Source of the DNA: Streptococcus pneumoniae
GTDB lineage: Bacteria; Bacillota; Bacilli; Lactobacillales; Streptococcaceae
DNA length: 64,000 nt
NCBI RefSeq assembly: GCF_001457635.1
Contig: NZ_LN831051.1
Coordinates: 1 to 64,000, forward strand
Reading direction: 5' to 3'
Part shown: piece by piece, positions 1-20,800 of the stretch
Position numbering within the stretch: the stretch's first letter is position 1
Layout of the letters: each line of letters begins with the position of its first letter
Position numbers and translations under genes: made by a program
Notes under the pieces: model-generated
What the model was told of the DNA's origin: nothing
What the model saw: the letters and a program-made list of their open reading frames with translations, nothing else
Databases searched by the model: none

Positions 1-1337
1 AGGTCATGAAGTCAACTTTGATGTTTTGGTATCTCCAAAAGCAGCATTGAAACGATGAGTACCTCAAACAAAAAATTAGCAGAAGTTGAAAGCTGCTAAA
101 GAACAGGTGGTCTTATAAACTTTGCTTCACCAGAAAGTAAAAAAGAAGCTTTCTTGAAAGCAATTGAAGCGCGAACAAGTGTTGAAAGACCATGAAATTA
201 GCACCCAAGATCAAGTCAATGACCGACTTAATAAATTGACAGAAGCTCATAAAGCTCTGAATGGTCAAGAGAAATTTAAGGAAGAAAAGACAGAGCTTGA
301 TCGTTTAACAGGTGAGGTTCAAGAACTCTTGGATGCAAACCAAACCATCCTTCAGGTTCTGCCCTAGCTCCGCTTCTTGAGAAAAACAAGGTCTTGGTTG
401 AAAAAGTAGATTTGAGTCCAGAAGAGCTTGCAACAGCGAAACAGAGTCTAAAAGATCTGGTTGCTTTATTGAAAGAAGACAAGCCAGCAGTCTTTCTGAT
501 AGTAAAACAGGTGTTGAAGTACACTTCTCAAATAAAGAGAAGACTGTCATCAAGGGTTTGAAAGTAGAGCGTGTTCAAGCAAGTGCTGAAGAGAAGAAAT
601 ACTTTGCTGGAGAAGATGCTCATGTCTTTGAAATAGAAGGTTTGGATGAAAAAGGTCAAGATGTTGATCTCTCTTACGCTTCTATTGTGAAAATCCCAAT
701 TGAAAAAGATAAGAAAGTTAAGAAAGTATTTTTCTTACCTGAAGCAAAGAGGCAGTAGAATTGGCTTTTGAACAAACGGATAGTCATGTTATCTTTACAG
801 CACCACACTTTACTCATTATGCCTTTGTTTTATGAATCTGCTGAAAAACCACACCTGCTAAACCAGCACCACAAAACAAAGTCCTTCCAAAACCTACTTA
901 TCAACCGGCTTCTGATCAACAAAAGGCTCCTAAATTGGAGTTCAAGAGGAAAAGGTTGCCTTTCATCGTCAAGAGCATGAAAATGCTGAGATGCTAGTTG
1001 GGGAACAACGAGTCATCATACAGGGACGAGATGGACTGTTAAGACATGTCTTTGAAGTTGATGAAAACGGTCAGCGTCGTCTTCGTTCAACAGAAGTCAT
1101 CCAAGAAGCGATTCCAGAAATTGTTGAAATTGGAACAAAAGTAAAAACAGTACCAGCAGTAGTAGCTACACAGGAAAAACCAGCTCAAAATACAGCAGTT
1201 AAATCAGAAGAAGCAAGCAACAATTGCCAAATACAGGAACAGCTGATGCTAATGAAGCCCTAATAGCAGGCTTAGCCAGCCTTGGTCTTGCTAGTTTAGC
1301 CTTGACCTTGAGACGGGAAAGAGAAGATAAAGATTAA
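1..1337 (+). pseudogene. endoD: endo-beta-N-acetylglucosaminidase 3' end, multiply frameshifted copy
   Basis: The C-terminal part of the same protein encoded intact at 17832-22772. Fragments of the right sequence appear in all three forward frames, including the C-terminal LPNTG-type sorting region near 1226-1337; the stop is at 1335-1337. Differences from the intact copy are almost all homopolymer length changes: about seven single-base changes within the first 120 bases, GGCC read as GC near 175, GCC shortened near 337, GG to G near 744, AAA to AA near 1220. This looks like low-accuracy consensus, not evolutionary decay. The gene runs off the left edge. Confidence 0.9.
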
Positions 1338-1380
1338 ATATCGAAAATCTTGTGAAATCTTTCCTTATATTTCCAAAGTG

Positions 1381-1389
1381 TGATATAAT
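1381..1389 (+). promoter_or_regulatory. pgk extended -10 promoter (left copy)
   Basis: TGATATAAT is a TG-extended -10 element about 36 bases before the pgk ATG. No convincing -35 box is visible. A GGAG ribosome binding site lies at 1411-1414. Confidence 0.5.
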
Positions 1390-1424
1390 AGTTTCGAATA
1401 AAATAATAAAGGAGTTTTTGTAAC

Positions 1425-2626
1425 ATGGCAAAACTTACTGTTAAAGACGTTGACTTGAAAGGTAAAAAAGTCCTCGTTCGTGTTGACTTCAACGTACCAT
1501 TGAAAGATGGCGTAATCACTAACGATAACCGTATCACCAGCAGCTCTTCCAACTATTAAGTACATCATCGAACAGGGTGGACGTGCAATTCTTTTCTCTC
1601 ACCTTGGACGTGTGAAAGAAGAAGCTGATAAAGCTGGTAAATCACTTGCTCTTGTAGCGCTGACTTGGCAGCAAAACTTGGTCAAGATGTTGTTTTCCCA
1701 GGTGTCACTCGTGGTGCTGAATTGGAAGCGGCAATCAACGCTCTTGAAGATGGACAAGTTCTCTTGGTTGAAAACACTTCGTTACGAAGATGTTGACGGC
1801 AAGAAAGAATCTAAAAACGATCCTGAACTTGGTAAATACTGGGCATCACTTGGAGATGGTATCTTCGTAAACGATGCATTCGGTACAGCTCACCGTGCAC
1901 ACGCATCTAACGTTGGTATCTCAGCAAACGTTGAAAAAGCAGTTGCTGGTTTCCTTCTTGAAAACGAAATTGCCTACATCCAAGAAGCAGTTGAAACTCC
2001 AGAACGTCCATTCGTGGGCTATCCTTGGTGGTTCAAAAGTTTCAGACAAGATCGGTGTTATCGAAAACTTGCTTGAAAAAGCTGATAAAGTCCTTATCGG
2101 TGGTGGGATGACTTACACATTCTACAAAGCACAAGGTATCGAAATCGGTAACTCACTTGTAGAAGAAGACAAATTGGATGTTGCGAAAGCTCTTCTTGAA
2201 AAAGCAAATGGTAAATTGATCTTGCCAGTTGACTCAAAAGAAGCTAACGCATTTGCTGGTTACACTGAAGTGCGTGACACTGAAGGTGAAGCAGTTTTCT
2301 GAAGGCTTCCTTGGTCTTGACATCGGTCCAAAATCTATCGCCAAATTGGACGAAGCTTTGACTGGTGCCAAAACAGTTGTATGGAACGGACCTATGGGTG
2401 TATTTGAAACCCAGATTTCCAAGCTGGTACAATCGGTGTGTGTGATGGACGCTATCGTGAAACAACCAGGAGTTAAATCAATCATCGGTGGTGGTGACTC
2501 AGCTGCCGCAGCGATTAACTTGGCCGTGCAGACAAGTTCTCATGGATTAGTACGGGTGGTGGAGCATCAATGGAACTTCTTGAAGGTAAGGTTCTTCCAG
2601 GACTTGCAGCCTTGACAGAAAAATAA
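1425..2626 (+). pseudogene. pgk: phosphoglycerate kinase, frameshifted copy
   Basis: Same gene as the intact pgk at 16546-17742 (398 codons). This copy is 5 bases longer overall and has at least eight indels: +C near 1538, -A near 1659, +T near 1780, +G near 2018, +T near 2297, -A near 2410, +4 in a GT repeat near 2438, -C near 2520. The one apparent substitution (AAATTTGAC read as AAATTGGAC near 2344) is itself two compensating homopolymer errors. An essential glycolytic gene cannot be this damaged in a living cell unless the other copy is used, so sequencing error in a terminal, thinly covered stretch is the best explanation. Confidence 0.93.
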
Positions 2627-2761
2627 GATTTTATAAATAAATCAAAGAAGAGAGGGATGAAAGTTCCTCTTTTCTTTTGCTTAAAATAAAAACGCTTCCT
2701 CTCAACTATTACTCATAAAAATCACCGATTTATGATAAAATGGAAATAGAAAGTTGAGATT

Positions 2762-3289
2762 ATGAGTTATTTTAAAAAATATAAATTCGATAAATCCCAG
2801 TTCAAACTTGGTATGCGAACCTTTAAAACAGGTATTGCTGTTTTTCTAGTTCTCTTGATTTTTGGCTTTTTTGGCTGGAAAGGTCTTCAAATTGGTGCTT
2901 TGACAGCCGTTTTTAGCCTGAGGGAGAGTTTTGATGAGAGTGTTCATTTTGGGACTTCGCGTATTCTAGGAAATAGTATCGGTGGACTCTATGCCTTGGT
3001 CTTCTTCTTATTAAATACCTTTTTCCATGAAGCCTTTTGGGTGACCTTGGTAGTTGTTCCAATCTGCACCATGTTAACCATTATGACAAATGTAGCCATG
3101 AATAACAAAGCAGGGGTTATTGGTGGTGTAGCAGCTATGTTAATCATTACCCTATCAATTCCAAGTGGTGAGACAATTTCGTACGTGTTTGTGCGTGTAT
3201 CAGAAACGTTTATGGGAGTTTTTGTCGCAATTATCGTAAATTACGATATTGATCGTATTCGTCTCTTTTTAGAGAAAAAAGAAAAATAA
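2762..3289 (+). CDS. FUSC / aromatic acid exporter-type membrane protein (left copy)
   Basis: A 175-residue membrane protein with a short basic N-terminus (rich in Lys, Phe and Tyr) followed by about four to five hydrophobic segments (roughly residues 25-45, 70-88, 92-115, 118-135 and 148-165), resembling the small aromatic-acid-exporter/FUSC family (DUF939-like). The substrate is unknown. It lies between pgk and glnR. Its stop codon abuts the GlnR operator of the next operon. It is identical to the copy at 15883-16410. Confidence 0.75.
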   Translation: MSYFKKYKFDKSQFKLGMRTFKTGIAVFLVLLIFGFFGWKGLQIGALTAVFSLRESFDESVHFGTSRILGNSIGGLYALVFFLLNTFFHEAFWVTLVVVPICTMLTIMTNVAMNNKAGVIGGVAAMLIITLSIPSGETISYVFVRVSETFMGVFVAIIVNYDIDRIRLFLEKKEK

Positions 3290-3306
3290 TGTTACATTTT
3301 ATAACA
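3290..3306 (+). promoter_or_regulatory. GlnR operator upstream of glnRA (left copy)
   Basis: TGTTACATTTTATAACA fits the GlnR/TnrA consensus TGTNA-N7-TNACA exactly. It begins one base after the stop codon of the upstream membrane protein and sits just 5' of the glnR -35 box, where bound GlnR would repress glnRA when glutamine is plentiful. Confidence 0.85.
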
Positions 3307-3313
3307 TTATCAA

Positions 3314-3342
3314 TTGACGTTTGTCTTTTTTTAGACTATAAT
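3314..3342 (+). promoter_or_regulatory. glnRA promoter (left copy)
   Basis: TTGACG (3314-3319), a 17-base spacer, then TATAAT (3337-3342). The glnR ATG follows at 3366 with an AAGGAAAT ribosome binding site. Confidence 0.85.
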
Positions 3343-3365
3343 AGACAGAAAGAAGGAAATTGTAA

Positions 3366-3722
3366 ATGAAGGAAAAAGAATTTCGCCGAAATATGGCTGT
3401 TTTTCCTATCGGCAGTGTTATGAAGTTGACCGATCTATCGGCGCGTCAGATTCGTTATTATGAAGATCAAGAGTTGATCAAGCCCGATCGAAACGAAGGA
3501 AATCGTCGCATGTATTCCTTGAATGACATGGATCGTCTGCTTGAAATCAAAGATTATATCTCTGAAGGTTATAATATCGCTGCCATTAAGAAAAAATATG
3601 CTGAACGTGAAGCGAAATCCAAGAAAGCGGTTAGTCAGACTGAAGTACGTCGTGCACTTCACAATGAACTCCTCCAACAGGGGCGTTTTGCTTCAGTACA
3701 GTCACCTTTTGGTCGCGGTTAG
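3366..3722 (+). CDS. glnR: glutamine synthetase repressor GlnR (left copy)
   Basis: A 118-residue MerR-family regulator. The N-terminal winged helix carries the typical LSARQIRYYEDQ motif (about residues 25-36) followed by the NRRMYS wing. GlnR senses nitrogen through glutamine-bound glutamine synthetase and represses glnRA and related genes in Firmicutes. It is co-transcribed with glnA 36 bases downstream, and the operator TGTNA-N7-TNACA lies upstream of its own promoter, which implies autoregulation. It duplicates 15450-15806. Confidence 0.93.
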   Translation: MKEKEFRRNMAVFPIGSVMKLTDLSARQIRYYEDQELIKPDRNEGNRRMYSLNDMDRLLEIKDYISEGYNIAAIKKKYAEREAKSKKAVSQTEVRRALHNELLQQGRFASVQSPFGRG

Positions 3723-3758
3723 GCAACCGCAAGTAGTCATAGATTAAGGAGAAAACTT

Positions 3759-5105
3759 ATGCCAATCACAGCTGCAGATATTCGTCGTGAAGTCAAGGAA
3801 AAAAATGTTACCTTTATTCGTCTTATGTTCTCAGATATTTTGGGAACCATGAAAAACGTCGAAATTCCTGCTACAGATGAACAGTTAGATAAGGTCTTGT
3901 CGAACAAGGTTATGTTTGATGGATCTTCTATTGAAGGTTTTGTACGTATCAATGAGTCGGATATGTACTTGTACCCGGACTTGGATACATGGACAGTCTT
4001 CCCTTGGGGAGATGAAAATGGAAGTGTTGCAGGTCTGATCTGTGATGTCTATACAACAGAAGGTGAACCATTTGCGGGTGACCCTCGTGGTAATTTGAAA
4101 CGAGCTCTTCGTCACATGGAAGAAGTTGGATTCAAATCCTTCAACCTTGGTCCAGAGCCAGAATTCTTCCTATTTAAGTTGGATGAAAATGGGGACCCAA
4201 CACTTGAAGTGAATGACAAGGGTGGCTACTTTGATTTGGCACCTACTGACCTTGCGGACAACACACGTCGTGAGATTGTGAATGTCTTGACCAAAATGGG
4301 ATTTGAAGTAGAAGCGAGTCACCACGAGGTTGCGGTTGGACAGCATGAGATTGACTTTAAGTACGATGAAGTTCTCCGTGCTTGTGATAAGATTCAAATC
4401 TTTAAACTTGTTGTTAAAACCATTGCTCGCAAACACGGACTTTACGCAACATTTATGGCGAAGCCAAAATTTGGTATTGCTGGCTCAGGTATGCACTGTA
4501 ATATGTCCTTGTTTGATGCAGAAGGAAATAACGCCTTCTTTGATCCAAATGATCCAAAAGGAATGCAGTTGTCAGAAACAGCTTACCATTTCCTAGGCGG
4601 TTTGATCAAGCATGCTTACAACTATACTGCCATCATGAACCCAACAGTTAACTCATACAAACGTTTGGTTCCAGGTTATGAAGCGCCTGTTTACATTGCT
4701 TGGGCTGGTCGTAACCGTTCGCCACTTGTGCGCGTACCTGCTTCACGTGGTATGGGAACTCGTCTTGAGTTGCGTTCAGTGGATCCAATGGCGAACCCTT
4801 ACATTGCTATGGCTGTTCTTTTGGAAGTTGGTTTGTATGGTATTGAAAATAAAATCGAAGCACCAGCTCCTATCGAAGAAAATATCTACATCATGACAGC
4901 AGAAGAGCGCAAGGAAGCTGGTATTACAGACCTTCCATCAACTCTTCATAATGCTTTGAAAGCTTTGACAGAAGATGAAGTGGTTAAAGCTGCTCTCGGA
5001 GATCACATCTACACTAGCTTCCTTGAAGCCAAACGAATCGAATGGGCAAGTTATGCAACCTTCGTTTCACAATGGGAAATTGATAATTATTTAGACCTTT
5101 ACTAA
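3759..5105 (+). CDS. glnA: glutamine synthetase type I (left copy)
   Basis: 448 residues, the normal length of the short GSI-alpha class. It makes glutamine from glutamate, ammonia and ATP, and in its feedback-inhibited form chaperones GlnR onto DNA. Visible hallmarks are the beta-grasp N-domain, the [10 protein letters not shown] loop (about residues 51-60), the PEPEFF metal-binding segment, the [20 protein letters not shown]-site region and the NRSPLVRVP motif. No adenylylation-type (beta subclass) insert is apparent. The ATG is preceded by AAGGAG. It is identical to the copy at 14067-15413. Confidence 0.95.
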
Positions 5106-5176
5106 TATAGAAGAAAGATTGCCTGTGGGTAAACAGTCACACAGCAGTCTAAGCCATCAAATACCTATAACCCTTA

Positions 5177-5206
5177 AAATAGCGATTTCGGTCGCTATTT
5201 ATTTTT
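5177..5206 (+). terminator. glnRA intrinsic terminator (left copy)
   Basis: A 9-bp stem AAATAGCGA / TCGCTATTT around a TTTCGG loop (5177-5200) followed by ATTTTT. Confidence 0.8.
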
Positions 5207-5218
5207 CGAAAAATCCTC

Positions 5219-5247
5219 TTGACTCTTTTGCGAATTAGATTTATCAT
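5219..5247 (+). promoter_or_regulatory. Promoter of the small ORF at 5279 (left copy)
   Basis: TTGACT (5219-5224), a 17-base spacer, then TATCAT (5242-5247), located after the glnA terminator. It drives a short gene that runs into the IS element. Confidence 0.6.
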
Positions 5248-5278
5248 CAGACGTGTAGAAGAAAATCAAGGAGTCACT

Positions 5279-5407
5279 ATGGAAAAATTCAATTTCAAAA
5301 ACAATATCGGGCAAGAAAACAAGTTACTTCAAATCGAAATCTACAAGTTTACTAACCCCAAATCATTCATACCTCTCTCAACTAGATGTAACTTACAAAA
5401 CCCCTGA
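5279..5407 (+). pseudogene. 42-residue ORF, probably a gene 5' end cut by the IS (left copy)
   Basis: An ATG with a good AAGGAG site and its own promoter opens a 42-codon frame starting MEKFNFKNNIG. The stop codon (5405-5407) lies inside a 13-bp stem at the probable IS border, so the original gene most likely continued and was truncated by insertion. I do not recognise the N-terminal sequence. It is mirrored at 13765-13893. Confidence 0.4.
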
Positions 5408-5447
5408 CCTCATGAGCCACTTTCTTCCTCCTCATGAGGTCAGTTTT
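5404..5447 (+). terminator. Strong hairpin at the IS edge (left copy)
   Basis: A perfect 13-bp stem CTGACCTCATGAG / CTCATGAGGTCAG (5404-5416 with 5431-5443) followed by TTTT. It would stop transcription entering the IS from the host side, which is common at IS ends. Confidence 0.7.
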
Positions 5448-5547
5448 ACTTTCTGCTGTTCCAGTATCGTTTTTCCTCGCTAGATTTCCTCAAAAGGGCA
5501 GACTCCTCCCTTGGTGCGTCACACGATTTTTTCATCTCGACTGTTCT

Positions 5548-6894
5548 TTAATGCATCATTAACGACGCTTTTCTTCTAGGTGGTTCATAAGGAACAGGAA
5601 GATTCAGGTTGACTTTTCTAATCCTAGGATAAAGTGCTGAAAACAATTCGGAATAGGCATAGAGACTAGACAATTTGAGGAGCTGCTTGCGTCCTGTTCG
5701 AACACATTTTCCCACCACGTGAAGAAAAAGATGGCGGAAGCGTTTGATTGTTAAAGTTTGGAAGTCACCTCCAGCTAGATGTTTGAGAAAAAGATAGAGA
5801 TTGTAGGCGATACAGCTCATCATCATACGAACTTCGTTTTTGATTAAGCTTGAACTATCCGTTTTATCGCCAAAAAATCCCTCCTTCATCTCCTTGATGA
5901 AATTCTCGGCTTGACCACGTCCACGATAAAGCTGAAACTGGTCTTGGCTTGTTCCACTCGTCATATTTGTAACGAGAGAAATAACATCGTAGAACAAGTT
6001 TCCTTCTTTTCGTTCAGAGAACTGGCAGACACGACGCTTGTGCGACCAAGATCCTGCTTGATAGAGAGTTTCTGAGTAGGCGGAGTGGGGCAAGATGGTT
6101 AAGTCCTCATCCTGTGGGCAAGGGAGGGAAAGGTCTCCAAGACGGCTCAGAACAGTATTTTTCTTGAGTTTTATGAGGTAGTATTGCCCTGTTTTTTCAA
6201 TTAAATCGTATAATTTTGGGGTCGCAAAGCCACTATCCATTCGAAAGAGAAGTTGATTAAACCGTTCTAAAACAGGTGTGATAAAGCTGTCTGCCTCTTC
6301 AGAACAATAACGATTACCAGGACGAAGCTGGGCATTGAAACAATAACCTGTCTTCCCCTCGAAAGCATAAAGAGGATGATAGCCATGAGCACGATAGTGG
6401 GCGTTATAAGCAACACCTTCTTGCTTGCCATAAGTTGTGAAATGGGTAGAATCGATATCTACAATGAGTTGGTTTAGCTGGTGAAACTGTAAAAAGAATT
6501 CGACCAATTCAAGGTTGAGGCATCGCAAACTACGGACTGTTTCCTCGTCAGTTCTGGAAAGAAAACGGGATAAGGTTGGCTGTGAAGCAAGCTGCCCTCC
6601 TTCCAACAATTTTGGAAAGTAGGCATCAGCTGACAATTCTTTACAAGCATAGTCCGTTCCATAGCCTGTTAACAGTTGAAAGAGGAACTGAACAAGGATA
6701 TCTGAATCCGAATAACGACAGTAGCGGCGTTGGTCATTCGTTACTAAATACTTAGAAATCCGCTCTTTTAGTTTCAACTGGGAAAAAAGTTCCTGAAAAA
6801 AGATAAGACCACCATACTGGGTTAAATGACCTCCATCGAAAGATAGTTGGTAAAAAGACTTGTTTTGGAAGTGATGATTTGGTAAACTGTTCAT
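5548..6894 (-). CDS. IS1380-family transposase (left copy)
   Basis: A 448-residue DDE transposase. The first catalytic Asp is in the IVDIDSTHF region (about residue 145), the second in FRMDSGFATPKLYD, and the Glu in the GRGQAENFIKEMKEGFF segment, the order typical of IS1380/IS4-like transposases. The protein is full length and intact. The start ATG at 6894 follows an AAGGAAAC site. It resembles the element called IS1380-Spn1 in pneumococci; the exact name is not confirmed. Confidence 0.85.
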   Translation of the reverse strand: MNSLPNHHFQNKSFYQLSFDGGHLTQYGGLIFFQELFSQLKLKERISKYLVTNDQRRYCRYSDSDILVQFLFQLLTGYGTDYACKELSADAYFPKLLEGGQLASQPTLSRFLSRTDEETVRSLRCLNLELVEFFLQFHQLNQLIVDIDSTHFTTYGKQEGVAYNAHYRAHGYHPLYAFEGKTGYCFNAQLRPGNRYCSEEADSFITPVLERFNQLLFRMDSGFATPKLYDLIEKTGQYYLIKLKKNTVLSRLGDLSLPCPQDEDLTILPHSAYSETLYQAGSWSHKRRVCQFSERKEGNLFYDVISLVTNMTSGTSQDQFQLYRGRGQAENFIKEMKEGFFGDKTDSSSLIKNEVRMMMSCIAYNLYLFLKHLAGGDFQTLTIKRFRHLFLHVVGKCVRTGRKQLLKLSSLYAYSELFSALYPRIRKVNLNLPVPYEPPRRKASLMMH

Positions 6895-7124
6895 GTGAGT
6901 TTCCTTTCTTTTTGTGTTTTTTTCTACACTTATACCATAAAGGGGAAACTCTTTTTTGTCTAGTAAAAAACACCCATTGGGTGAAAAAAGAAACCATCCA
7001 GGATCTAAGCTAAGGCAAGGATTCTGGATGATTTTTAGATTAGGGGTGAATAATTGGGGCTAACTTTTGCAAGCTTCAAAATTACACATCTGTAAATATT
7101 TTTTCGAAAGATATATTTGAAGCC

Positions 7125-7230
7125 ATAGTAAATTGAGACTAGAATAGTACACTACATCTGCTAAAAATTTCTAGAAATTAATTTAACTTTCCTAATCGAT
7201 TTGTTTACATCTTATTTCAATCTACTATAT
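7125..7230 (+). repeat. RUP element (left copy)
   Basis: A 106-bp element beginning ATAGTAAATTGAGACTAGAA and ending TTTCAATCTACTATAT, the form and length of the Repeat Unit of Pneumococcus (about 107 bp, thought to be mobilised in trans by IS630-Spn1). It abuts the zinc-ribbon remnant. With the tail of the IS1380 element it fills the gene-free stretch 6895-7228. Confidence 0.85.
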
Positions 7231-7417
7231 TATCTCAATAAATGATGATGGCGACTGTTTTGTTTGTGCTTGTCGATTTTTGAATCCTGATCGAGCGGAA
7301 GAATATTTCTGCCGAGGTTGTCAAGGGGAAAATCCTGAAGATATTGAATTTTATGATGAACAATTACAGGCAGAAAAGGTGGAGGCTTTGAATATTCGAT
7401 TGGAAGTAAAAAATTGA
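7229..7417 (+). pseudogene. Zinc-ribbon-like small protein, 5' end lost at a RUP (left copy)
   Basis: The open frame encodes a ~60-residue acidic segment with four cysteines, CFVCAC at the start and FCRGCQGEN 19 residues later, a plausible zinc ribbon. No start codon exists: the frame runs back into the RUP and hits a stop at 7193. The RUP has apparently replaced the 5' end. The family is not identified. It lies between the IS and the hsdS locus, and is mirrored at 11755-11943. Confidence 0.5.
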
Positions 7418-7467
7418 ATTATCTACAATCTCATCAACAATAAACCTATTTCAACCCCATTATCTAT

Positions 7468-7489
7468 AGGCGTATTTTTACGCCTTTTT
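7468..7489 (+). terminator. Terminator flanking the ivr locus (left copy)
   Basis: AGGCGTA-TTTT-TACGCCT (7468-7485) followed by TTTT. It terminates transcription just outside the hsdS 5' repeat. Mirrored at 11683-11704. Confidence 0.65.
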
Positions 7490-7508
7490 ATATACTTGAA
7501 GCACATAA

Positions 7509-7593
7509 GAAACATTATGGGAAGTTTGCTGATGGAAGTACTCAAGAAATTGATGTTCCTTATGATATTCCTGATACTTGGGAGTGGGTGAGG
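7509..7593 (+). repeat. hsdS 5' inverted repeat (IR1-type), left copy
   Basis: The 85 bp ending at 7593 are identical in inverted orientation to 11579-11663. They encode the hsdS N-terminal segment ending DTWEWVR. In SpnIII loci an ~85-bp repeat, IR1, is the site at which TRD1 modules are swapped. Here the identity continues outward because the whole flank is duplicated, so the true outer edge of IR1 cannot be defined from this window. Confidence 0.75.
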
Positions 7594-8868
7594 ATAAAAT
7601 CAATTTATTGGAATTTTGGGCAAAATAAGCCAGAGAAATCCTTTAGGTATATAGATACGTCTAGTATTGATAGAAAAAAGAACATAATCAACTACAAAAA
7701 TCTACAATATCTTTCACCTGAACAAGCGCCTTCCCGTGCCAGAAAATTAGTTTCGCAGAATAGTGTCTTATTTTCAACAGTTAGACCATATCTAAAAAAT
7801 ATTGCTGTAGTTAGAGAACTTAAAGAGTATTTGATAGCTAGTACAGCATTTATTGTTTTGGATACTTTACTTAACGAAACATATTTGAAATATTATTTAT
7901 TATCAGATAATTTTATCAATCGTGTTAATAATAAATCTACTGGAACAAGTTATCCTGCAATCAATGATTATAATTTTAATCTATTATTAATTGCTCTCCC
8001 CCCACTATCCGAACAACAACGAATAGTAGAAGCAATCGAATCAGCTTTAGAAAAAGTAGATGAATATGCTGAAAGTTATAATAGACTAGAACAGCTAGAT
8101 AAAGAATTTCCAGATAAACTAAAAAAATCTATTCTTCAATATGCTATGCAAGGAAAATTAGTTGAACAAGACCCAAATGATGAATCAGTCGAAGTTTTAC
8201 TTGAAAAAATACGAGCAGAAAAACAAAAACTCTTTGAAGAAGGCAAGATTAAAAAGAAAGATTTGGACATTTCTATTGTTTCCCAAGGAGATGATAACTC
8301 TTATTATGAGGAAGTACCTTGTGAAATACCAGAAAGTTGGGAATGGGTGAGGTTAAACGATATAACCTCCTACATTCAAAGAGGGAAGTCTCCAAAATAT
8401 TCAAATATTCCTATATACCCTGTGATTGCTCAGAAATGTAATCAATGGTCTGGCTTTTCTATTGACTTAGCAAGATTTATTGATCCCGAAACAGTTCATA
8501 GTTACCAGAAAGAAAGATTACTAAGGGATGGTGATTTAATGTGGAATTCAACAGGTCTAGGTACGTTAGGACGATTAGCTATTTACCATGAAAATAAAAA
8601 TCCTTATGCCTGGGCTGTTGCAGATAGCCATGTTACAGTTATAAGAGTCTTATCGGGGGTTATTAATTGCCATTTCATCTATAATTTTCTTTCCTCTCCT
8701 ATTGTTCAGTCAGTTATTGAAGAAAAAGCGTCGGGTAGTACAAAACAAAAAGAATTATTAACGAAAACTATAAAAGAATATTTAATCCCCCTCCCACCCC
8801 TTCCTGAACAATCCAGAATCGTTGATAAAATCGAACAATTTTTCGCCCATATTGACGCACTAATTTAG
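7588..8868 (+). CDS. hsdS: Type I restriction specificity subunit HsdS, cassette A (TRD1 + TRD2)
   Basis: The reading frame holds a complete two-domain specificity subunit: TRD1 (about residues 1-135), central conserved helix starting PPLSEQQRIVEAIESALEK (about 135-240), TRD2 (240-395) and the distal repeat IPLPPLPEQSRIVDKIEQ at the C-terminus. HsdS binds DNA and positions HsdM/HsdR. There is no real start codon: the frame runs upstream through IR1 without an ATG and the GTG at 7588 is only the first nominal start. No hsdM lies upstream, so in this orientation the cassette would be silent, as expected for the non-expressed hsdS' of an ivr locus. Its TRD1 and TRD2 differ from those of the copy at 10286-11584. 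Confidence 0.85.
   Translation: MRIKSIYWNFGQNKPEKSFRYIDTSSIDRKKNIINYKNLQYLSPEQAPSRARKLVSQNSVLFSTVRPYLKNIAVVRELKEYLIASTAFIVLDTLLNETYLKYYLLSDNFINRVNNKSTGTSYPAINDYNFNLLLIALPPLSEQQRIVEAIESALEKVDEYAESYNRLEQLDKEFPDKLKKSILQYAMQGKLVEQDPNDESVEVLLEKIRAEKQKLFEEGKIKKKDLDISIVSQGDDNSYYEEVPCEIPESWEWVRLNDITSYIQRGKSPKYSNIPIYPVIAQKCNQWSGFSIDLARFIDPETVHSYQKERLLRDGDLMWNSTGLGTLGRLAIYHENKNPYAWAVADSHVTVIRVLSGVINCHFIYNFLSSPIVQSVIEEKASGSTKQKELLTKTIKEYLIPLPPLPEQSRIVDKIEQFFAHIDALI
7994..8308 (+). repeat. hsdS central inverted repeat (IR2-type), left copy
   Basis: About 315 bp encoding the conserved helix between the two TRDs, repeated in inverted orientation at 10846-11160 with constant offset (x + y = 19154) and at least two mismatches near 8033-8036. 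This corresponds to the ~333-bp IR2 of SpnIII systems. The offset differs from the 19172 of the outer arms, showing it is an independent repeat. Confidence 0.85.
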
Positions 8869-8924
8869 TATAATAGTTTTACGTGCGGTGGAATTTCTAT
8901 CAAACATAAGATAGGAGTTTTACG

Positions 8925-11663: not shown

Positions 11664-11682
11664 TTATGTGCTTCAAGTATAT

Positions 11683-11704
11683 AAAAAGGCGTAAAAATAC
11701 GCCT
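11683..11704 (-). terminator. Terminator flanking the ivr locus (right copy)
   Basis: Mirror of the AGGCGTA/TACGCCT hairpin at 7468-7489, with its T-run on the minus strand. Confidence 0.6.
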
Positions 11705-11754
11705 ATAGATAATGGGGTTGAAATAGGTTTATTGTTGATGAGATTGTAGATAAT

Positions 11755-11943
11755 TCAATTTTTTACTTCCAATCGAATATTCAAAGCCTCCACCTTTTCT
11801 GCCTGTAATTGTTCATCATAAAATTCAATATCTTCAGGATTTTCCCCTTGACAACCTCGGCAGAAATATTCTTCCGCTCGATCAGGATTCAAAAATCGAC
11901 AAGCACAAACAAAACAGTCGCCATCATCATTTATTGAGATAAT
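11755..11943 (-). pseudogene. Zinc-ribbon-like small protein, 5' end lost at a RUP (right copy)
   Basis: Identical to the remnant at 7229-7417: four-cysteine segment (CFVCAC then FCRGCQGEN), no start codon, 5' end fused to a RUP. Confidence 0.5.
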
Positions 11944-12047
11944 ATAGTAGATTGAAATAAGATGTAAACAAATCGATTAGGAAAGTTAAATTAATTTCTA
12001 GAAATTTTTAGCAGATGTAGTGTACTATTCTAGTCTCAATTTACTAT
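11942..12047 (-). repeat. RUP element (right copy)
   Basis: Reverse complement of the 106-bp RUP at 7125-7230. The gene-free stretch 11944-12277 contains this RUP and the upstream end of the IS1380 element, nothing else. Confidence 0.85.
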
Positions 12048-12277
12048 GGCTTCAAATATATCTTTCGAAAAAATATTTACAGATGTGTAATTTTGAAGCT
12101 TGCAAAAGTTAGCCCCAATTATTCACCCCTAATCTAAAAATCATCCAGAATCCTTGCCTTAGCTTAGATCCTGGATGGTTTCTTTTTTCACCCAATGGGT
12201 GTTTTTTACTAGACAAAAAAGAGTTTCCCCTTTATGGTATAAGTGTAGAAAAAAACACAAAAAGAAAGGAAACTCAC

Positions 12278-13624
12278 ATGAACAGTTTACCAAATCATCA
12301 CTTCCAAAACAAGTCTTTTTACCAACTATCTTTCGATGGAGGTCATTTAACCCAGTATGGTGGTCTTATCTTTTTTCAGGAACTTTTTTCCCAGTTGAAA
12401 CTAAAAGAGCGGATTTCTAAGTATTTAGTAACGAATGACCAACGCCGCTACTGTCGTTATTCGGATTCAGATATCCTTGTTCAGTTCCTCTTTCAACTGT
12501 TAACAGGCTATGGAACGGACTATGCTTGTAAAGAATTGTCAGCTGATGCCTACTTTCCAAAATTGTTGGAAGGAGGGCAGCTTGCTTCACAGCCAACCTT
12601 ATCCCGTTTTCTTTCCAGAACTGACGAGGAAACAGTCCGTAGTTTGCGATGCCTCAACCTTGAATTGGTCGAATTCTTTTTACAGTTTCACCAGCTAAAC
12701 CAACTCATTGTAGATATCGATTCTACCCATTTCACAACTTATGGCAAGCAAGAAGGTGTTGCTTATAACGCCCACTATCGTGCTCATGGCTATCATCCTC
12801 TTTATGCTTTCGAGGGGAAGACAGGTTATTGTTTCAATGCCCAGCTTCGTCCTGGTAATCGTTATTGTTCTGAAGAGGCAGACAGCTTTATCACACCTGT
12901 TTTAGAACGGTTTAATCAACTTCTCTTTCGAATGGATAGTGGCTTTGCGACCCCAAAATTATACGATTTAATTGAAAAAACAGGGCAATACTACCTCATA
13001 AAACTCAAGAAAAATACTGTTCTGAGCCGTCTTGGAGACCTTTCCCTCCCTTGCCCACAGGATGAGGACTTAACCATCTTGCCCCACTCCGCCTACTCAG
13101 AAACTCTCTATCAAGCAGGATCTTGGTCGCACAAGCGTCGTGTCTGCCAGTTCTCTGAACGAAAAGAAGGAAACTTGTTCTACGATGTTATTTCTCTCGT
13201 TACAAATATGACGAGTGGAACAAGCCAAGACCAGTTTCAGCTTTATCGTGGACGTGGTCAAGCCGAGAATTTCATCAAGGAGATGAAGGAGGGATTTTTT
13301 GGCGATAAAACGGATAGTTCAAGCTTAATCAAAAACGAAGTTCGTATGATGATGAGCTGTATCGCCTACAATCTCTATCTTTTTCTCAAACATCTAGCTG
13401 GAGGTGACTTCCAAACTTTAACAATCAAACGCTTCCGCCATCTTTTTCTTCACGTGGTGGGAAAATGTGTTCGAACAGGACGCAAGCAGCTCCTCAAATT
13501 GTCTAGTCTCTATGCCTATTCCGAATTGTTTTCAGCACTTTATCCTAGGATTAGAAAAGTCAACCTGAATCTTCCTGTTCCTTATGAACCACCTAGAAGA
13601 AAAGCGTCGTTAATGATGCATTAA
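12278..13624 (+). CDS. IS1380-family transposase (right copy)
   Basis: 448 residues, identical to the protein at 5548-6894 and placed symmetrically (coordinates sum to 19172). Intact DDE transposase with DIDSTHF, MDSGFATPKLYD and the QAENFIKEMKEGFF Glu region. ATG preceded by AAAGGAAAC. Confidence 0.85.
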   Translation: MNSLPNHHFQNKSFYQLSFDGGHLTQYGGLIFFQELFSQLKLKERISKYLVTNDQRRYCRYSDSDILVQFLFQLLTGYGTDYACKELSADAYFPKLLEGGQLASQPTLSRFLSRTDEETVRSLRCLNLELVEFFLQFHQLNQLIVDIDSTHFTTYGKQEGVAYNAHYRAHGYHPLYAFEGKTGYCFNAQLRPGNRYCSEEADSFITPVLERFNQLLFRMDSGFATPKLYDLIEKTGQYYLIKLKKNTVLSRLGDLSLPCPQDEDLTILPHSAYSETLYQAGSWSHKRRVCQFSERKEGNLFYDVISLVTNMTSGTSQDQFQLYRGRGQAENFIKEMKEGFFGDKTDSSSLIKNEVRMMMSCIAYNLYLFLKHLAGGDFQTLTIKRFRHLFLHVVGKCVRTGRKQLLKLSSLYAYSELFSALYPRIRKVNLNLPVPYEPPRRKASLMMH

Positions 13625-13724
13625 AGAACAGTCGAGATGAAAAAATCGTGTGACGCACCAAGGGAGGAGTCTGCCCTTTTGAGGAAATCTAGCGAGGAAA
13701 AACGATACTGGAACAGCAGAAAGT

Positions 13725-13768
13725 AAAACTGACCTCATGAGGAGGAAGAAAGTGGCTCATGAGGTCAG
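13725..13768 (-). terminator. Strong hairpin at the IS edge (right copy)
   Basis: Mirror of the 13-bp perfect stem at 5404-5443. Confidence 0.7.
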
Positions 13769-13893
13769 GGGTTTTGTAAGTTACATCTAGTTGAGAGAGG
13801 TATGAATGATTTGGGGTTAGTAAACTTGTAGATTTCGATTTGAAGTAACTTGTTTTCTTGCCCGATATTGTTTTTGAAATTGAATTTTTCCAT
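13765..13893 (-). pseudogene. 42-residue ORF, probably a gene 5' end cut by the IS (right copy)
   Basis: Mirror of 5279-5407. It has AAGGAG, an ATG and a promoter, and ends inside the IS-edge hairpin. Product not recognised. Confidence 0.4.
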
Positions 13894-13924
13894 AGTGACT
13901 CCTTGATTTTCTTCTACACGTCTG

Positions 13925-13953
13925 ATGATAAATCTAATTCGCAAAAGAGTCAA
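13925..13953 (-). promoter_or_regulatory. Promoter of the small ORF at 13893 (right copy)
   Basis: On the minus strand TTGACT, 17-base spacer, TATCAT; mirror of 5219-5247. Confidence 0.6.
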
Positions 13954-13965
13954 GAGGATTTTTCG

Positions 13966-13995
13966 AAAAATAAATAGCGACCGAAATCGCTATTT
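13966..13995 (-). terminator. glnRA intrinsic terminator (right copy)
   Basis: Mirror of the 9-bp AAATAGCGA/TCGCTATTT hairpin, stem 13972-13995, T-run to the left. Confidence 0.8.
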
Positions 13996-14066
13996 TAAGG
14001 GTTATAGGTATTTGATGGCTTAGACTGCTGTGTGACTGTTTACCCACAGGCAATCTTTCTTCTATA

Positions 14067-15413
14067 TTAGTAAAGGTCTAAATAATTATCAATTTCCCAT
14101 TGTGAAACGAAGGTTGCATAACTTGCCCATTCGATTCGTTTGGCTTCAAGGAAGCTAGTGTAGATGTGATCTCCGAGAGCAGCTTTAACCACTTCATCTT
14201 CTGTCAAAGCTTTCAAAGCATTATGAAGAGTTGATGGAAGGTCTGTAATACCAGCTTCCTTGCGCTCTTCTGCTGTCATGATGTAGATATTTTCTTCGAT
14301 AGGAGCTGGTGCTTCGATTTTATTTTCAATACCATACAAACCAACTTCCAAAAGAACAGCCATAGCAATGTAAGGGTTCGCCATTGGATCCACTGAACGC
14401 AACTCAAGACGAGTTCCCATACCACGTGAAGCAGGTACGCGCACAAGTGGCGAACGGTTACGACCAGCCCAAGCAATGTAAACAGGCGCTTCATAACCTG
14501 GAACCAAACGTTTGTATGAGTTAACTGTTGGGTTCATGATGGCAGTATAGTTGTAAGCATGCTTGATCAAACCGCCTAGGAAATGGTAAGCTGTTTCTGA
14601 CAACTGCATTCCTTTTGGATCATTTGGATCAAAGAAGGCGTTATTTCCTTCTGCATCAAACAAGGACATATTACAGTGCATACCTGAGCCAGCAATACCA
14701 AATTTTGGCTTCGCCATAAATGTTGCGTAAAGTCCGTGTTTGCGAGCAATGGTTTTAACAACAAGTTTAAAGATTTGAATCTTATCACAAGCACGGAGAA
14801 CTTCATCGTACTTAAAGTCAATCTCATGCTGTCCAACCGCAACCTCGTGGTGACTCGCTTCTACTTCAAATCCCATTTTGGTCAAGACATTCACAATCTC
14901 ACGACGTGTGTTGTCCGCAAGGTCAGTAGGTGCCAAATCAAAGTAGCCACCCTTGTCATTCACTTCAAGTGTTGGGTCCCCATTTTCATCCAACTTAAAT
15001 AGGAAGAATTCTGGCTCTGGACCAAGGTTGAAGGATTTGAATCCAACTTCTTCCATGTGACGAAGAGCTCGTTTCAAATTACCACGAGGGTCACCCGCAA
15101 ATGGTTCACCTTCTGTTGTATAGACATCACAGATCAGACCTGCAACACTTCCATTTTCATCTCCCCAAGGGAAGACTGTCCATGTATCCAAGTCCGGGTA
15201 CAAGTACATATCCGACTCATTGATACGTACAAAACCTTCAATAGAAGATCCATCAAACATAACCTTGTTCGACAAGACCTTATCTAACTGTTCATCTGTA
15301 GCAGGAATTTCGACGTTTTTCATGGTTCCCAAAATATCTGAGAACATAAGACGAATAAAGGTAACATTTTTTTCCTTGACTTCACGACGAATATCTGCAG
15401 CTGTGATTGGCAT
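14067..15413 (-). CDS. glnA: glutamine synthetase type I
   Basis: 448 residues, class GSI-alpha; makes glutamine from glutamate, ammonia and ATP. The motifs are as in the left copy ([34 protein letters not shown]). It sits 36 bases after glnR in a two-gene operon ended by the hairpin at 13966-13995. This copy is contiguous with undamaged pgk and endoD and should be taken as the reference one. Identical to 3759-5105. Confidence 0.96.
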
Positions 15414-15449
15414 AAGTTTTCTCCTTAATCTATGACTACTTGCGGTTGC

Positions 15450-15806
15450 CTAACCGCGACCAAAAGGTGACTGTACTGAAGCAAAACGCCCCTGTTGGAG
15501 GAGTTCATTGTGAAGTGCACGACGTACTTCAGTCTGACTAACCGCTTTCTTGGATTTCGCTTCACGTTCAGCATATTTTTTCTTAATGGCAGCGATATTA
15601 TAACCTTCAGAGATATAATCTTTGATTTCAAGCAGACGATCCATGTCATTCAAGGAATACATGCGACGATTTCCTTCGTTTCGATCGGGCTTGATCAACT
15701 CTTGATCTTCATAATAACGAATCTGACGCGCCGATAGATCGGTCAACTTCATAACACTGCCGATAGGAAAAACAGCCATATTTCGGCGAAATTCTTTTTC
15801 CTTCAT
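15450..15806 (-). CDS. glnR: glutamine synthetase repressor GlnR
   Basis: 118-residue MerR-type nitrogen regulator with LSARQIRYYEDQ and an NRRMYS wing. It represses its own glnRA operon through the operator at 15866-15882 when bound glutamine synthetase signals nitrogen excess. Identical to 3366-3722. Confidence 0.94.
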   Translation of the reverse strand: MKEKEFRRNMAVFPIGSVMKLTDLSARQIRYYEDQELIKPDRNEGNRRMYSLNDMDRLLEIKDYISEGYNIAAIKKKYAEREAKSKKAVSQTEVRRALHNELLQQGRFASVQSPFGRG

Positions 15807-15829
15807 TTACAATTTCCTTCTTTCTGTCT

Positions 15830-15858
15830 ATTATAGTCTAAAAAAAGACAAACGTCAA
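15830..15858 (-). promoter_or_regulatory. glnRA promoter (right copy)
   Basis: On the minus strand TTGACG (15853-15858), 17-base spacer, TATAAT (15830-15835). Confidence 0.85.
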
Positions 15859-15865
15859 TTGATAA

Positions 15866-15882
15866 TGTTATAAAATGTAACA
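15866..15882 (-). promoter_or_regulatory. GlnR operator (right copy)
   Basis: TGTTATAAAATGTAACA on the given strand, a full match to TGTNA-N7-TNACA, between the -35 box and the stop codon of the neighbouring membrane protein gene. Confidence 0.85.
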
Positions 15883-16410
15883 TTATTTTTCTTTTTTCTC
15901 TAAAAAGAGACGAATACGATCAATATCGTAATTTACGATAATTGCGACAAAAACTCCCATAAACGTTTCTGATACACGCACAAACACGTACGAAATTGTC
16001 TCACCACTTGGAATTGATAGGGTAATGATTAACATAGCTGCTACACCACCAATAACCCCTGCTTTGTTATTCATGGCTACATTTGTCATAATGGTTAACA
16101 TGGTGCAGATTGGAACAACTACCAAGGTCACCCAAAAGGCTTCATGGAAAAAGGTATTTAATAAGAAGAAGACCAAGGCATAGAGTCCACCGATACTATT
16201 TCCTAGAATACGCGAAGTCCCAAAATGAACACTCTCATCAAAACTCTCCCTCAGGCTAAAAACGGCTGTCAAAGCACCAATTTGAAGACCTTTCCAGCCA
16301 AAAAAGCCAAAAATCAAGAGAACTAGAAAAACAGCAATACCTGTTTTAAAGGTTCGCATACCAAGTTTGAACTGGGATTTATCGAATTTATATTTTTTAA
16401 AATAACTCAT
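15883..16410 (-). CDS. FUSC / aromatic acid exporter-type membrane protein
   Basis: 175 residues, four to five membrane segments, basic N-terminus; small aromatic-acid-exporter-like family, substrate unknown. Conserved neighbour of pgk and glnR in pneumococci. Identical to 2762-3289. Confidence 0.75.
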   Translation of the reverse strand: MSYFKKYKFDKSQFKLGMRTFKTGIAVFLVLLIFGFFGWKGLQIGALTAVFSLRESFDESVHFGTSRILGNSIGGLYALVFFLLNTFFHEAFWVTLVVVPICTMLTIMTNVAMNNKAGVIGGVAAMLIITLSIPSGETISYVFVRVSETFMGVFVAIIVNYDIDRIRLFLEKKEK

Positions 16411-16497
16411 AATCTCAACTTTCTATTTCCATTTTATCATAAATCGGTGATTTTTATGAGTAATAGTTGAGAGGAAGCGTTTTTATTTTAAGCAAAA

Positions 16498-16526
16498 GAA
16501 AAGAGGAACTTTCATCCCTCTCTTCT
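16498..16526 (-). terminator. pgk terminator
   Basis: On the minus strand an AAGAGAGGG...TTCCTCTTTTC hairpin followed by a T-rich run, 20-50 bases after the pgk stop. Confidence 0.65.
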
Positions 16527-16545
16527 TTGATTTATTTATAAAATC

Positions 16546-17742
16546 TTATTTTTCTGTCAAGGCTGCAAGTCCTGGAAGAACCTTACCTTCAAGAAGTTCC
16601 ATTGATGCTCCACCACCCGTACTAATCCATGAGAACTTGTCTGCACGGCCAAGGTTAATCGCTGCGGCAGCTGAGTCACCACCACCGATGATTGATTTAA
16701 CTCCTGGTTGTTTCACGATAGCGTCCATCACACCGATTGTACCAGCTTGGAAATCTGGGTTTTCAAATACACCCATAGGTCCGTTCCATACAACTGTTTT
16801 GGCACCAGTCAAAGCTTCGTCAAATTTGGCGATAGATTTTGGACCGATGTCAAGACCAAGGAAGCCTTCAGAAACTGCTTCACCTTCAGTGTCACGCACT
16901 TCAGTGTAACCAGCAAATGCGTTAGCTTCTTTTGAGTCAACTGGCAAGATCAATTTACCATTTGCTTTTTCAAGAAGAGCTTTCGCAACATCCAATTTGT
17001 CTTCTTCTACAAGTGAGTTACCGATTTCGATACCTTGTGCTTTGTAGAATGTGTAAGTCATCCCACCACCGATAAGGACTTTATCAGCTTTTTCAAGCAA
17101 GTTTTCGATAACACCGATCTTGTCTGAAACTTTTGAACCACCAAGGATAGCCACGAATGGACGTTCTGGAGTTTCAACTGCTTCTTGGATGTAGGCAATT
17201 TCGTTTTCAAGAAGGAAACCAGCAACTGCTTTTTCAACGTTTGCTGAGATACCAACGTTAGATGCGTGTGCACGGTGAGCTGTACCGAATGCATCGTTTA
17301 CGAAGATACCATCTCCAAGTGATGCCCAGTATTTACCAAGTTCAGGATCGTTTTTAGATTCTTTCTTGCCGTCAACATCTTCGTAACGAGTGTTTTCAAC
17401 CAAGAGAACTTGTCCATCTTCAAGAGCGTTGATTGCCGCTTCCAATTCAGCACCACGAGTGACACCTGGGAAAACAACATCTTGACCAAGTTTTGCTGCC
17501 AAGTCAGCTGCTACAAGAGCAAGTGATTTACCAGCTTTATCAGCTTCTTCTTTCACACGTCCAAGGTGAGAGAAAAGAATTGCACGTCCACCTTGTTCGA
17601 TGATGTACTTAATAGTTGGAAGAGCTGCTGTGATACGGTTATCGTTAGTGATTACGCCATCTTTCAATGGTACGTTGAAGTCAACACGAACGAGGACTTT
17701 TTTACCTTTCAAGTCAACGTCTTTAACAGTAAGTTTTGCCAT
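16546..17742 (-). CDS. pgk: phosphoglycerate kinase
   Basis: 398 residues, full length and intact. It converts 1,3-bisphosphoglycerate and ADP to 3-phosphoglycerate and ATP in glycolysis. Visible signatures: [12 protein letters not shown] at residues 14-25, the FSHLGR substrate loop, the [12 protein letters not shown] region, and the C-terminal nucleotide-binding WNGPMGVFE and GGGDSAAA motifs. ATG preceded by AAAGGAG. Transcribed alone from an extended -10 promoter and ended by a hairpin near 16510. This is the intact counterpart of the damaged copy at 1425-2626. Confidence 0.97.
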
Positions 17743-17778
17743 GTTACAAAAACTCCTTTATTTATTTTATTCGAAACT

Positions 17779-17787
17779 ATTATATCA
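17779..17787 (-). promoter_or_regulatory. pgk extended -10 promoter
   Basis: TGATATAAT on the minus strand, about 37 bases before the pgk ATG; the -35 region is poor. It lies just beyond the endoD stop codon. Confidence 0.55.
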
Positions 17788-17831
17788 CACTTTGGAAATA
17801 TAAGGAAAGATTTCACAAGATTTTTCGATAT

Positions 17832-20800
17832 TTAATCTTTATCTTCTCTTTTCCGTCTCAAGGTCAAGGCTAAACTAGCAAGACCAAGGCTGGCTAAGCC
17901 TGCTATTAGGGCTTCATTAGCATCAGCTGTTCCTGTATTTGGCAATTGTTTGCTTGCTTCTTCTGATTTAACTGCTGTATTTTGAGCTGGTTTTTCCTGT
18001 GTAGCTACTACTGCTGGTACTGTTTTTACTTTTGTTCCAATTTCAACAATTTCTGGAATCGCTTCTTGGATGACTTCTGTTGAACGAAGACGACGCTGAC
18101 CGTTTTCATCAACTTCAAAGACATGTCTTAACAGTCCATCTCGTCCCTGTATGATGACTCGTTGTTCCCCAACTAGCATCTCAGCATTTTCATGCTCTTG
18201 ACGATGAAAGGCAACCTTTTCCTCTTGAACTTCCAATTTAGGAGCCTTTTGTTGATCAGAAGCCGGTTGATAAGTAGGTTTTGGAAGGACTTTGTTTTGT
18301 GGTGCTGGTTTAGCAGGTTGTGGTTTTTCAGCAGATTCATAAACAAAGGCATAATGAGTAAAGTGTGGTGCTGTAAAGATAACATGACTATCCGTTTGTT
18401 CAAAAGCCAATTCTACTGCCTCTTTGCCTTCAGGTAAGAAAAATACTTTCTTAACTTTCTTATCTTTTTCAATTGGGATTTTCACAATAGAAGCGTAAGA
18501 GAGATCAACATCTTGACCTTTTTCATCCAAACCTTCTATTTCAAAGACATGAGCATCTTCTCCAGCAAAGTATTTCTTCTCTTCAGCACTTGCTTGAACA
18601 CGCTCTACTTTCAAACCCTTGATGACAGTCTTCTCTTTATTTGAGAAGTGTACTTCAACACCTGTTTTACTATCAGAAAAGACTGCTGGCTTGTCTTCTT
18701 TCAATAAAGCAACCAGATCTTTTAGACTCTGTTTCGCTGTTGCAAGCTCTTCTGGACTCAAATCTACTTTTTCAACCAAGACCTTGTTTTTCTCAAGAAG
18801 CGGAGCTAGGGCAGAACCTGAAGGATGGTTTGGTTTGGCATCCAAGAGTTCTTGAACCTCACCTGTTAAACGATCAAGCTCTGTCTTTTCTTCCTTAAAT
18901 TTCTCTTGACCATTCAGAGCTTTATGAGCTTCTGTCAATTTATTAAGTCGGTCATTGACTTGATCTTGGGTGCTAATTTCATGGTCTTTCAACACTTGTT
19001 CGGCCGCTTCAATTGCTTTCAAGAAAGCTTCTTTTACTTCTGGTGAAGCAAAGTTATAGACCACCTTGTTCTTAGCAGCTTCAACTTCTGCTAATTTTTG
19101 TTTGAGGTACTCATCGTTCAATGCTGCTTTTGGAGATACCAAAACATCAAAGTTGACTTCATGACCTTGGTAACGAAGCGTCAAGGTTTGACGACCAGTC
19201 TTTTGAGCATCGTAACCAGAAATTTCAACTCCCTCATCAGTAAAGGAATGTTCTTCCATGGTGTCATTGCTATAAGCCACTGCAAAGCGTCCTTCAGACA
19301 AGTCTAAGCTATCACCAACTAGGTAATCTTTTTTCGGTTTCTGACTTACTTCAATTCCCAAAATAGTTTTCGGACTTGCTTCGTCTTGGCCAGTGACAGT
19401 CACTGACAAATTAGCATTTACTGGTTGTCCCAAATATTGGAGAGTAAGATTCTGTTCTCCCTTATGATGCGTATCAAAACCTGATACTGATACACCTGCG
19501 TGAGTTAGGCGAATGAGTTCGTCCTCAGTTCCTCCTTCATACTGAACTCGAAGAACACCACCTCTAAGGTCCAAATCCTCCCCTTCGGCGTAGCTTGTTT
19601 TCTTAGGTCCTGTTTCTAGGCTGACTGACTTGATTCTTCTGTCATCTTTTGGAACGGAAACTGCTAGGACATTACTAATTTCCTTGCCTGGCAACTGGGT
19701 ACGATAATAAAGAAGACCAGATTGATTTGTCAAATCCAATGGTGCACTTGCTAGGTCTCCTCCAACTTCGCTCTTCAAGGTTGCGAGCGGAGTTTGAGAA
19801 TTTGGATTATCATAAACGGTAATAGTTGCTCCAGCCTGTACATCTGCAAAGCCAACTTGTACCTTGTTATTGCCTAGAGAACGGGCTGCAGCCTTGGCCA
19901 TCGGAATATTGACACTCTCAGTATCAAGCTTTTCATACATTTTCCAGTTATAGATACGAATAGCCTTCCATGGAGTTCCATTGTCAGAAGTGACAACATT
20001 CAAGCGCCAGTCTTGAGCAGTGATTGGTTTATCAAGAGTGATATCTGTCACGTGTGCTTTGTTGCCACGGACTTCCTTAGCTAGCTTCCACTCACCATCT
20101 GCATCTTTATAATAAAGGTCAAAGTCTTTGGTGTTCATCAAGCCATCGTTAACAGACTCACCACCAGCCCCTGCATGATCCATGACCCATCTAACAACGG
20201 TACGTGGCTTGGTCAAACGAATATCCACACTACCACTCAACTGAGCTGAAGACCATTTATCTGACAAGCTAGTAATGGTACCGTTCAACATACCTTCAAT
20301 ACCTTCTCCACCTTCAGTCTTAGGGAAAGTACTATCAATAACTGTTGCACCTGGAACGATATTTTCAGCTAGTGGTTTTGGTAGGCTGGTATCTTTTACA
20401 GTCATACCCCAATCAAAGGTTGTGGTTGCAGCTTCTGAACGAACTCCATTTTTACCGACTGCTACAACCTTCAGTTCTTGAGTTGTACCCTGAGCACTTG
20501 CTGAGCGGCTAACTTTTGGTAGATAAATAGTTGTAGAAGATGAGCCAGTTAGTAATTTCCAGCTGTCTCCATCTTTTTCATAAACTTCATAGAAATCTGC
20601 ATCCTTGTTGCCTTTAAATTGCACAACTGCTTCCGCTTCTTGGGCATTTTTAAGAGATTGTTTCACTACAGAAAAGCTTGTCGGCGATTGTGGCTCTTGG
20701 TGATTGTCCGAGATAGTTAATTGTCCGAGGTTGAACTGATAATCTTTTACAGCACCTTCATGCTCAAAAAATAGTTTGACTGCATAGATGGTTTTACCTG

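Follow-up and report, generated by a model that had tools for sequence, protein, structure and literature searches.

The closest described relatives of the locus studied here are the phase-variable type I restriction–modification systems of the SpnIII/ivr type. The available sections of the SpnD39III study give the inverted repeats of that system as 85, 333 and 15 bp (PMC4190663), and those of a second study give 85, 298 and 15 bp for the ST556 locus, adding that PsrA in ST556 and TIGR4 acts on the 15-bp repeat only and that the enzymes for the longer repeats were then unknown (PMC4948785). One comparative paper, as far as its available part goes, finds the system in every S. pneumoniae and S. 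pseudopneumoniae genome that it covers (100%), the latter figure being a reading of a table without headings. On the side of assembly, the accessible text on the PacBio assembly of E. coli EC958 cautions that the integration of contigs of alternative orientation leads to artefactual duplications (PMC4134206), and that of the Circlator paper describes low-quality contig ends (PMC4699355). In this work we have analysed the window, the first 64,000 bp (C1:1-64000) of a one-contig S. pneumoniae assembly of 2,110,968 bp rated 100% complete, in which the glnA-side flank of such a locus appears twice, in opposite orientation. It was compared with the last 20 kb of the contig (L009) and with a 20.8-kb stretch of S. 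pneumoniae 19F (L010), on which the synteny comparison rests. Our reading is that this palindrome was almost certainly produced by the assembly, where a chromosome contig left uncircularised begins, and is most likely not a biological feature.

By its sequence, the locus under the palindrome is recognizable as a known SpnIII/ivr-type system. We found hsdR, hsdM and hsdS in a row, the hsdS being a predicted one whose frame is broken in the assembly and which we read as a mixed consensus. A tyrosine recombinase stands between hsdS and a silent hsdS, there are inverted repeats of 85, 333 and 15 bp, and inversion states are seen both as an exact inversion over the 15-bp repeat and as the joining of glnA to two different 5' TRDs. 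These are named A (window 7594-7979) and B (11174-11578), and the 3' TRDs D, E and F (Table 1). As in the described systems, the order is hsdR-hsdM-hsdS-creX(psrA)-silent hsdS-hsdS, the repeat pairs measure 85, about 333 and 15 bp, there are two 5' and three 3' TRDs, and the recombinase protein is 100% identical to that of 19F. It differs in the IS1380 element between the locus and glnA, in TRDs which are partly unlike those of 19F, and in the aligned locus pieces being 92-98% identical to 19F. The names glnR, endoD, IS1380 and RUP for the flank genes and elements are used here as our assumption, as are dnaK, grpE and hrcA for the genes that precede hsdR in L009. The flank also encodes a membrane protein of FUSC/ArAE-like type (Pfam). 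The IS1380-type element extends over about 5353-7059 and 12113-13819, between glnA and the hsdS locus, is absent at the 19F site, appears by eye to be flanked by the direct repeat CTAA, and has a further 100% identical copy at C1:1376840-1378546. Farther along, at 24-64 kb of the window, we observed a dispersed repeat family of about 80-160 bp in both orientations (for example 26967-27125, 33858-34064, 47131-47289, 52194-52368, 53444-53557 and 61060-61180), perhaps what we take to be BOX-like elements.

Table 1. Features of the locus and its flanks (window positions, unless L009, the last 20 kb of the contig, is named)
Feature	Position	Strand	Remark
Left palindrome arm	1..7593		Reverse-complement copy of 11579-19167; opens the contig; read as a dangling redundant end, an artefactual copy of the glnA-side flank
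Right palindrome arm	11579..19167		Intact reading frames; read as the genuine glnA-side flank, runs on into the rest of the chromosome
IR1, left copy, 85 bp	7509..7593	+	Exact reverse complement of 11579-11663; matches the hsdM-side copy L009 12583-12667
IR1, right copy, 85 bp	11579..11663	-	
IR2, first copy, ~333 bp	7980..8313	+	97.9% to the reverse complement of 10842-11173
IR2, second copy	10842..11173	-	
IR3, first copy, 15 bp	9771..9785	+	Exact reverse complement of 10842-10856; borders the segment inverted between contig ends
IR3, second copy, 15 bp	10842..10856	-	
hsdS frame, TRD A + TRD D	7588..8868	+	Methylase_S; joined to the glnA flank here
creX/psrA tyrosine recombinase, 265 aa	8925..9722	+	Phage_integrase, E 3.7e-25; protein 100% to S. 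pneumoniae 19F
Silent hsdS fragment, TRD F	9733..10338	+	Opposite contig end has TRD E at this place
hsdS frame, TRD B + TRD E	10286..11584	-	Pfam; joined to the glnA flank; opposite contig end joins B to F
IS1380-type transposase	12278..13624	+	DDE_Tnp_1_4; mirror copy 5548-6894 (-)
glnA, genuine copy	14067..15413	-	Pfam; mirror copy 3759-5105 (+)
glnR	15450..15806	-	MerR by Pfam; mirror copy 3366-3722 (+)
pgk, intact, 398 aa	16546..17742	-	Pfam; left-arm counterpart split by indels (pieces such as 1612-2076, 2229-2615)
endoD-like surface glycosidase, 1646 aa	17832..22772	-	Single open frame; left arm 1 to ~1340 is a broken copy of its 3' end
hsdR	L009 8583-10916		Contig end opposite the window
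hsdM	L009 10929-12392		Contig end opposite the window
IR1, hsdM-side copy	L009 12583-12667		Followed by hsdS with a broken frame
creX, opposite-end copy	L009 14033-14830		Followed by a silent hsdS piece
Reverse hsdS, opposite-end copy	L009 15397-16692		
IR1, glnA-side copy at the opposite end	L009 16687-16771		Followed by a RUP-like repeat, IS1380, partial glnA and the contig stop

The original prediction was that the same flank genes stand on both sides of the locus in opposite orientation, with an exact symmetry from about 2523 to 7593 which stops sharply at the inner edge of IR1 on both sides. The gene content is as it described, and the symmetry is slightly wider: around the mirror axis x + y = 19172 there are zero mismatches over 2519-7593 and 11579-16653. 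That 5,075 identical bases arose by chance is out of the question. The inner border (7593/11579) does coincide with the inner edge of the 85-bp repeat, whose limits were taken from S. pneumoniae 19F and from the hsdM-side copy that lies at the opposite contig end. When gaps are allowed, window 1-7593 pairs with 19167-11579 on the reverse strand in 7,607 columns at 99.54% identity, with 3 mismatches and 27 gap openings that comprise 32 gap bases (BLAST). None of the 30 differences between the arms (14 insertions, 13 deletions and 3 substitutions) lies beyond base 2519, and 12 fall within the first 500 bases. When aligned by MAFFT, 1-2530 and its partner differ in 48 columns (17 insertions, 12 deletions and 19 substitutions), and we prefer the BLAST count because many of the MAFFT columns are merely shifted beside indels or at the cut end. 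Both pgk and the tail of endoD are disrupted in the left arm only. An old, diverged duplication was rejected on the kind of difference: 27 indels to 3 substitutions between the arms, compared with 156 substitutions to 4 gap openings against 19F over 13816-17840.

Could the mirror image come from a single fold-back read with a missed hairpin adapter? PacBio contig ends are indeed screened for hairpin artefacts, according to the available text of the EC958 paper (PMC4134206), but such a read would mirror the sequence up to its turning point, and here the centre of 3,985 bp has no overall mirror symmetry, and the left arm runs into TRD A but the right arm into TRD B. Contradicted on both counts, this origin is scarcely conceivable and was rejected.

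The other end of the contig is more informative. The original prediction allowed for hsdM and hsdR lying at another contig end, and that is where they are (C1:2099551-2103360, L009 8583-12392). Behind them stand the hsdS locus again and, up to the last base of the contig, a third IS1380-glnA flank with a partial glnA (C1:2107655-2110968). Moreover, L009 15950-20000 overlaps window 10842-14895 at 99.83% identity, without a single substitution; its 6 indels are confined to the last 1,293 bases. Over 4 kb compared with S. pneumoniae 19F (window 13816-17840 for the right arm), the same 156 substitutions appear in each arm, while gap openings number 15 in the left arm and 4 in the right; L009 5718-12582, which closes with hsdR-hsdM, shows a single gap opening over 6,865 columns. 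An excess of indels which rises toward contig ends is a sign of thinly covered long-read sequence. Both ends of this contig fit that profile, and the indels point to sequencing by long noisy reads. Indel-rich sequence at both ends argues for an uncircularised contig end, and the contig resembles a circle whose ends were not joined. The left arm is thus terminal, redundant with the other end and increasingly erroneous outward. The near-identical overlap and the low-quality ends are those of the uncircularised long-read contigs described in the accessible part of the Circlator paper (PMC4699355); the difference is that here one end adds an inverted repeat, which would be owing to the two-state locus. 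The third glnA-flank copy, the 4-kb overlap and the joining of hsdR-hsdM to the same locus at the opposite end all support the reading of the palindrome as an artefact.

The same evidence bears on the rival view that the glnA flank was really duplicated in inverted form through IR1 and that this arrangement became fixed in the chromosome. An exchange at IR1 between sister chromosomes would equally give an exact 5-kb symmetry ending at the recombination repeat. Yet the duplicated arm would have to start precisely at a contig end, rich in errors and with a broken pgk, while the other end has the normal hsdM-hsdS-glnA joining and the terminal overlap of 4 kb. Closing the circle with the arm kept would require a further, unsupported join and three copies of glnA. 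We also searched 97 genomes, our own included, with a 2.3-kb stretch covering glnA, glnR and the membrane protein gene, scoring 3 candidate places per genome, and obtained matches in 94. At the 3 places scored in each, no second copy was seen in any of the 57 other genomes of the genus (57/57), some of which are drafts that may collapse a duplicate; additional rows came from parts of a single copy that do not overlap, or from matches of 37 bases. Our own genome has two full copies of the stretch, and a third, of 829 bases, where the contig ends. In the 19F stretch, hsdR-hsdM-hsdS-creX-hsdS'-hsdS''-glnA-membrane gene-pgk occurs once (its glnR falls below the length cut-off of the gene listing but lies inside the aligned stretch), window 11576-17840 is collinear with it except for the IS1380 insertion, and identity to it is about 96% in the arms and in hsdR-hsdM, a level that by itself would suggest a host close to S. 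pneumoniae, possibly S. pseudopneumoniae. We consider a fixed duplication very improbable.

More can be said about the states in which the locus was sequenced. In the window the left glnA adjoins TRD A and the right glnA adjoins TRD B, and at the opposite end glnA adjoins B. Window 9771-10856 is inverted between the contig ends at 100% identity, with the exact 15-bp repeats at its borders, so that the silent TRDs E and F are swapped. The hsdM-side TRD resembles B over most of its length and follows A in one stretch, and its frame is broken several times. In a three-way alignment from IR1 to IR2 (849 columns), all three sequences agree in 576 columns, the hsdM-side TRD follows only B in 222, only A in 37 and neither in 14, and 32 of the 37 A-only columns fall in columns 181-360. 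A 135-base piece of the hsdM side scores 48 against A and 51 against B, whereas 1,000 shuffles of A scored at most 16 and none of B's own 135-base pieces more than 11 against A. The frame trouble is limited to this TRD and the first bases of IR2. Because the frame is broken there while the adjacent hsdR-hsdM is intact, the TRD looks like a consensus of mixed reads and not like the product of poor coverage. A genuine hybrid TRD was rejected as unlikely in view of the several frame breaks, confined to the TRD and the start of IR2, next to a clean hsdR-hsdM. The mosaic occupies C1:2103636-2104055 (L009 12668-13087), and the hsdM-side hsdS would probably be annotated automatically as a pseudogene, with mixed states in the culture as the likely cause. 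Most simply read, the DNA was a mixture in which both the 85-bp and the 15-bp repeat occurred in at least two states. From the two glnA junctions, the A/B mosaic and the E/F swap we infer that the culture used for sequencing probably contained several hsdS states side by side.

Most probably the real locus is present once, as hsdR-hsdM-IR1-[hsdS-creX-silent hsdS-hsdS]-IR1-RUP-IS1380-glnA-glnR-pgk-endoD. Inversion at IR1 would give two cell types, hsdM-A...B-glnA and hsdM-B...A-glnA. In the direction from A to B, the 4-kb cassette would be identical in the two, with their flanks exchanged. At this fork the assembler may have been unable to close the circle, and it would have ended the contig by leading the glnA-A path of one state (now the left arm) through the cassette into the B-glnA path of the other (now the right arm). 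Combining a left and a right flank from opposite states in this way makes glnA-A...B-glnA, which is the arrangement in the window. The original prediction had likewise proposed that an assembler merged two inversion states, and the joining of glnA to both A and B and the A/B mixture on the hsdM side accord with it. A comparable case is given by the phage tail-fibre loci of E. coli EC958, where, in the available text, alternative orientations in one culture led to conflicting assembly paths; those were separate small contigs with real variation and no hairpin artefact was found, whereas the chromosome contig studied here carries a mirrored arm at its end (PMC4134206). Two points count against the artefact. 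The 5,075 identical bases mean that the left arm does not derive from one raw read alone, which polishing by reads mapping to both copies could explain, and long reads spanning the 4-kb cassette, if dominant, should have prevented the join.

Is it possible that the join reflects mixed molecules and not just mixed reads? Exchange at IR1 between sister chromosomes might make glnA...glnA and hsdM...hsdM molecules in a small share of cells; there is a slim chance that such a by-product of phase switching was caught here. A minority of real inverted-duplication molecules, one read of which seeded the left end, would suit a locus in several states, and a few real reads would account for the error-rich outer arm. 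It is unneeded, since ordinary inversion states already yield every junction, and the assembly holds no counterpart hsdM...hsdM junction, though a one-contig assembly could hide one. This origin of the left end is highly improbable to us, and we favour a join of mixed reads from ordinary inversion states.

Lastly, we looked for the recombinase in other genomes. Among 97 relatives, creX gave 5 matches, our own included; of the other four, one reached 70% and three spanned about 40 bases. This search thus found no near relative carrying the locus. Across 197 genomes of the genus there were 12 matches, again with our own, three of them at 98%. A separate search for creX relatives gave 98%-identical recombinases in records of S. 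infantis, S. sanguinis and S. taonis, which speak against the creX-type system as a simple species marker. For a base rate we used 80 of the 90 creX relatives found. The recombinase lay less than 2.5 kb from a contig end in 25 of the 80, many of them metagenome bins, against 12.0 (sd 2.6) expected under uniform placement, and on contigs of at least 50 kb it was near the end in 6 of 46 (1.5 expected under the same placement). This is a weak sign that creX-type loci tend to break assemblies. Within stretches of at most 20.8 kb, and at the settings used, an inverted repeat was present in 36 of the 80 and exceeded 600 bp in one (L050), a scaffold of Phocaeicola coprocola whose creX relative is covered by an inverted duplication of 1.67 kb at 96% identity (7311-8975 and 9911-11578).

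An active invertible locus can thus leave a false inverted duplication of housekeeping genes, here glnA, glnR and pgk, in a reference assembly, and the false arm needs to be trimmed before studies of gene copy number or rearrangement. At the same time, the errors of the assembly double as a record of several hsdS states that probably coexisted in the culture.
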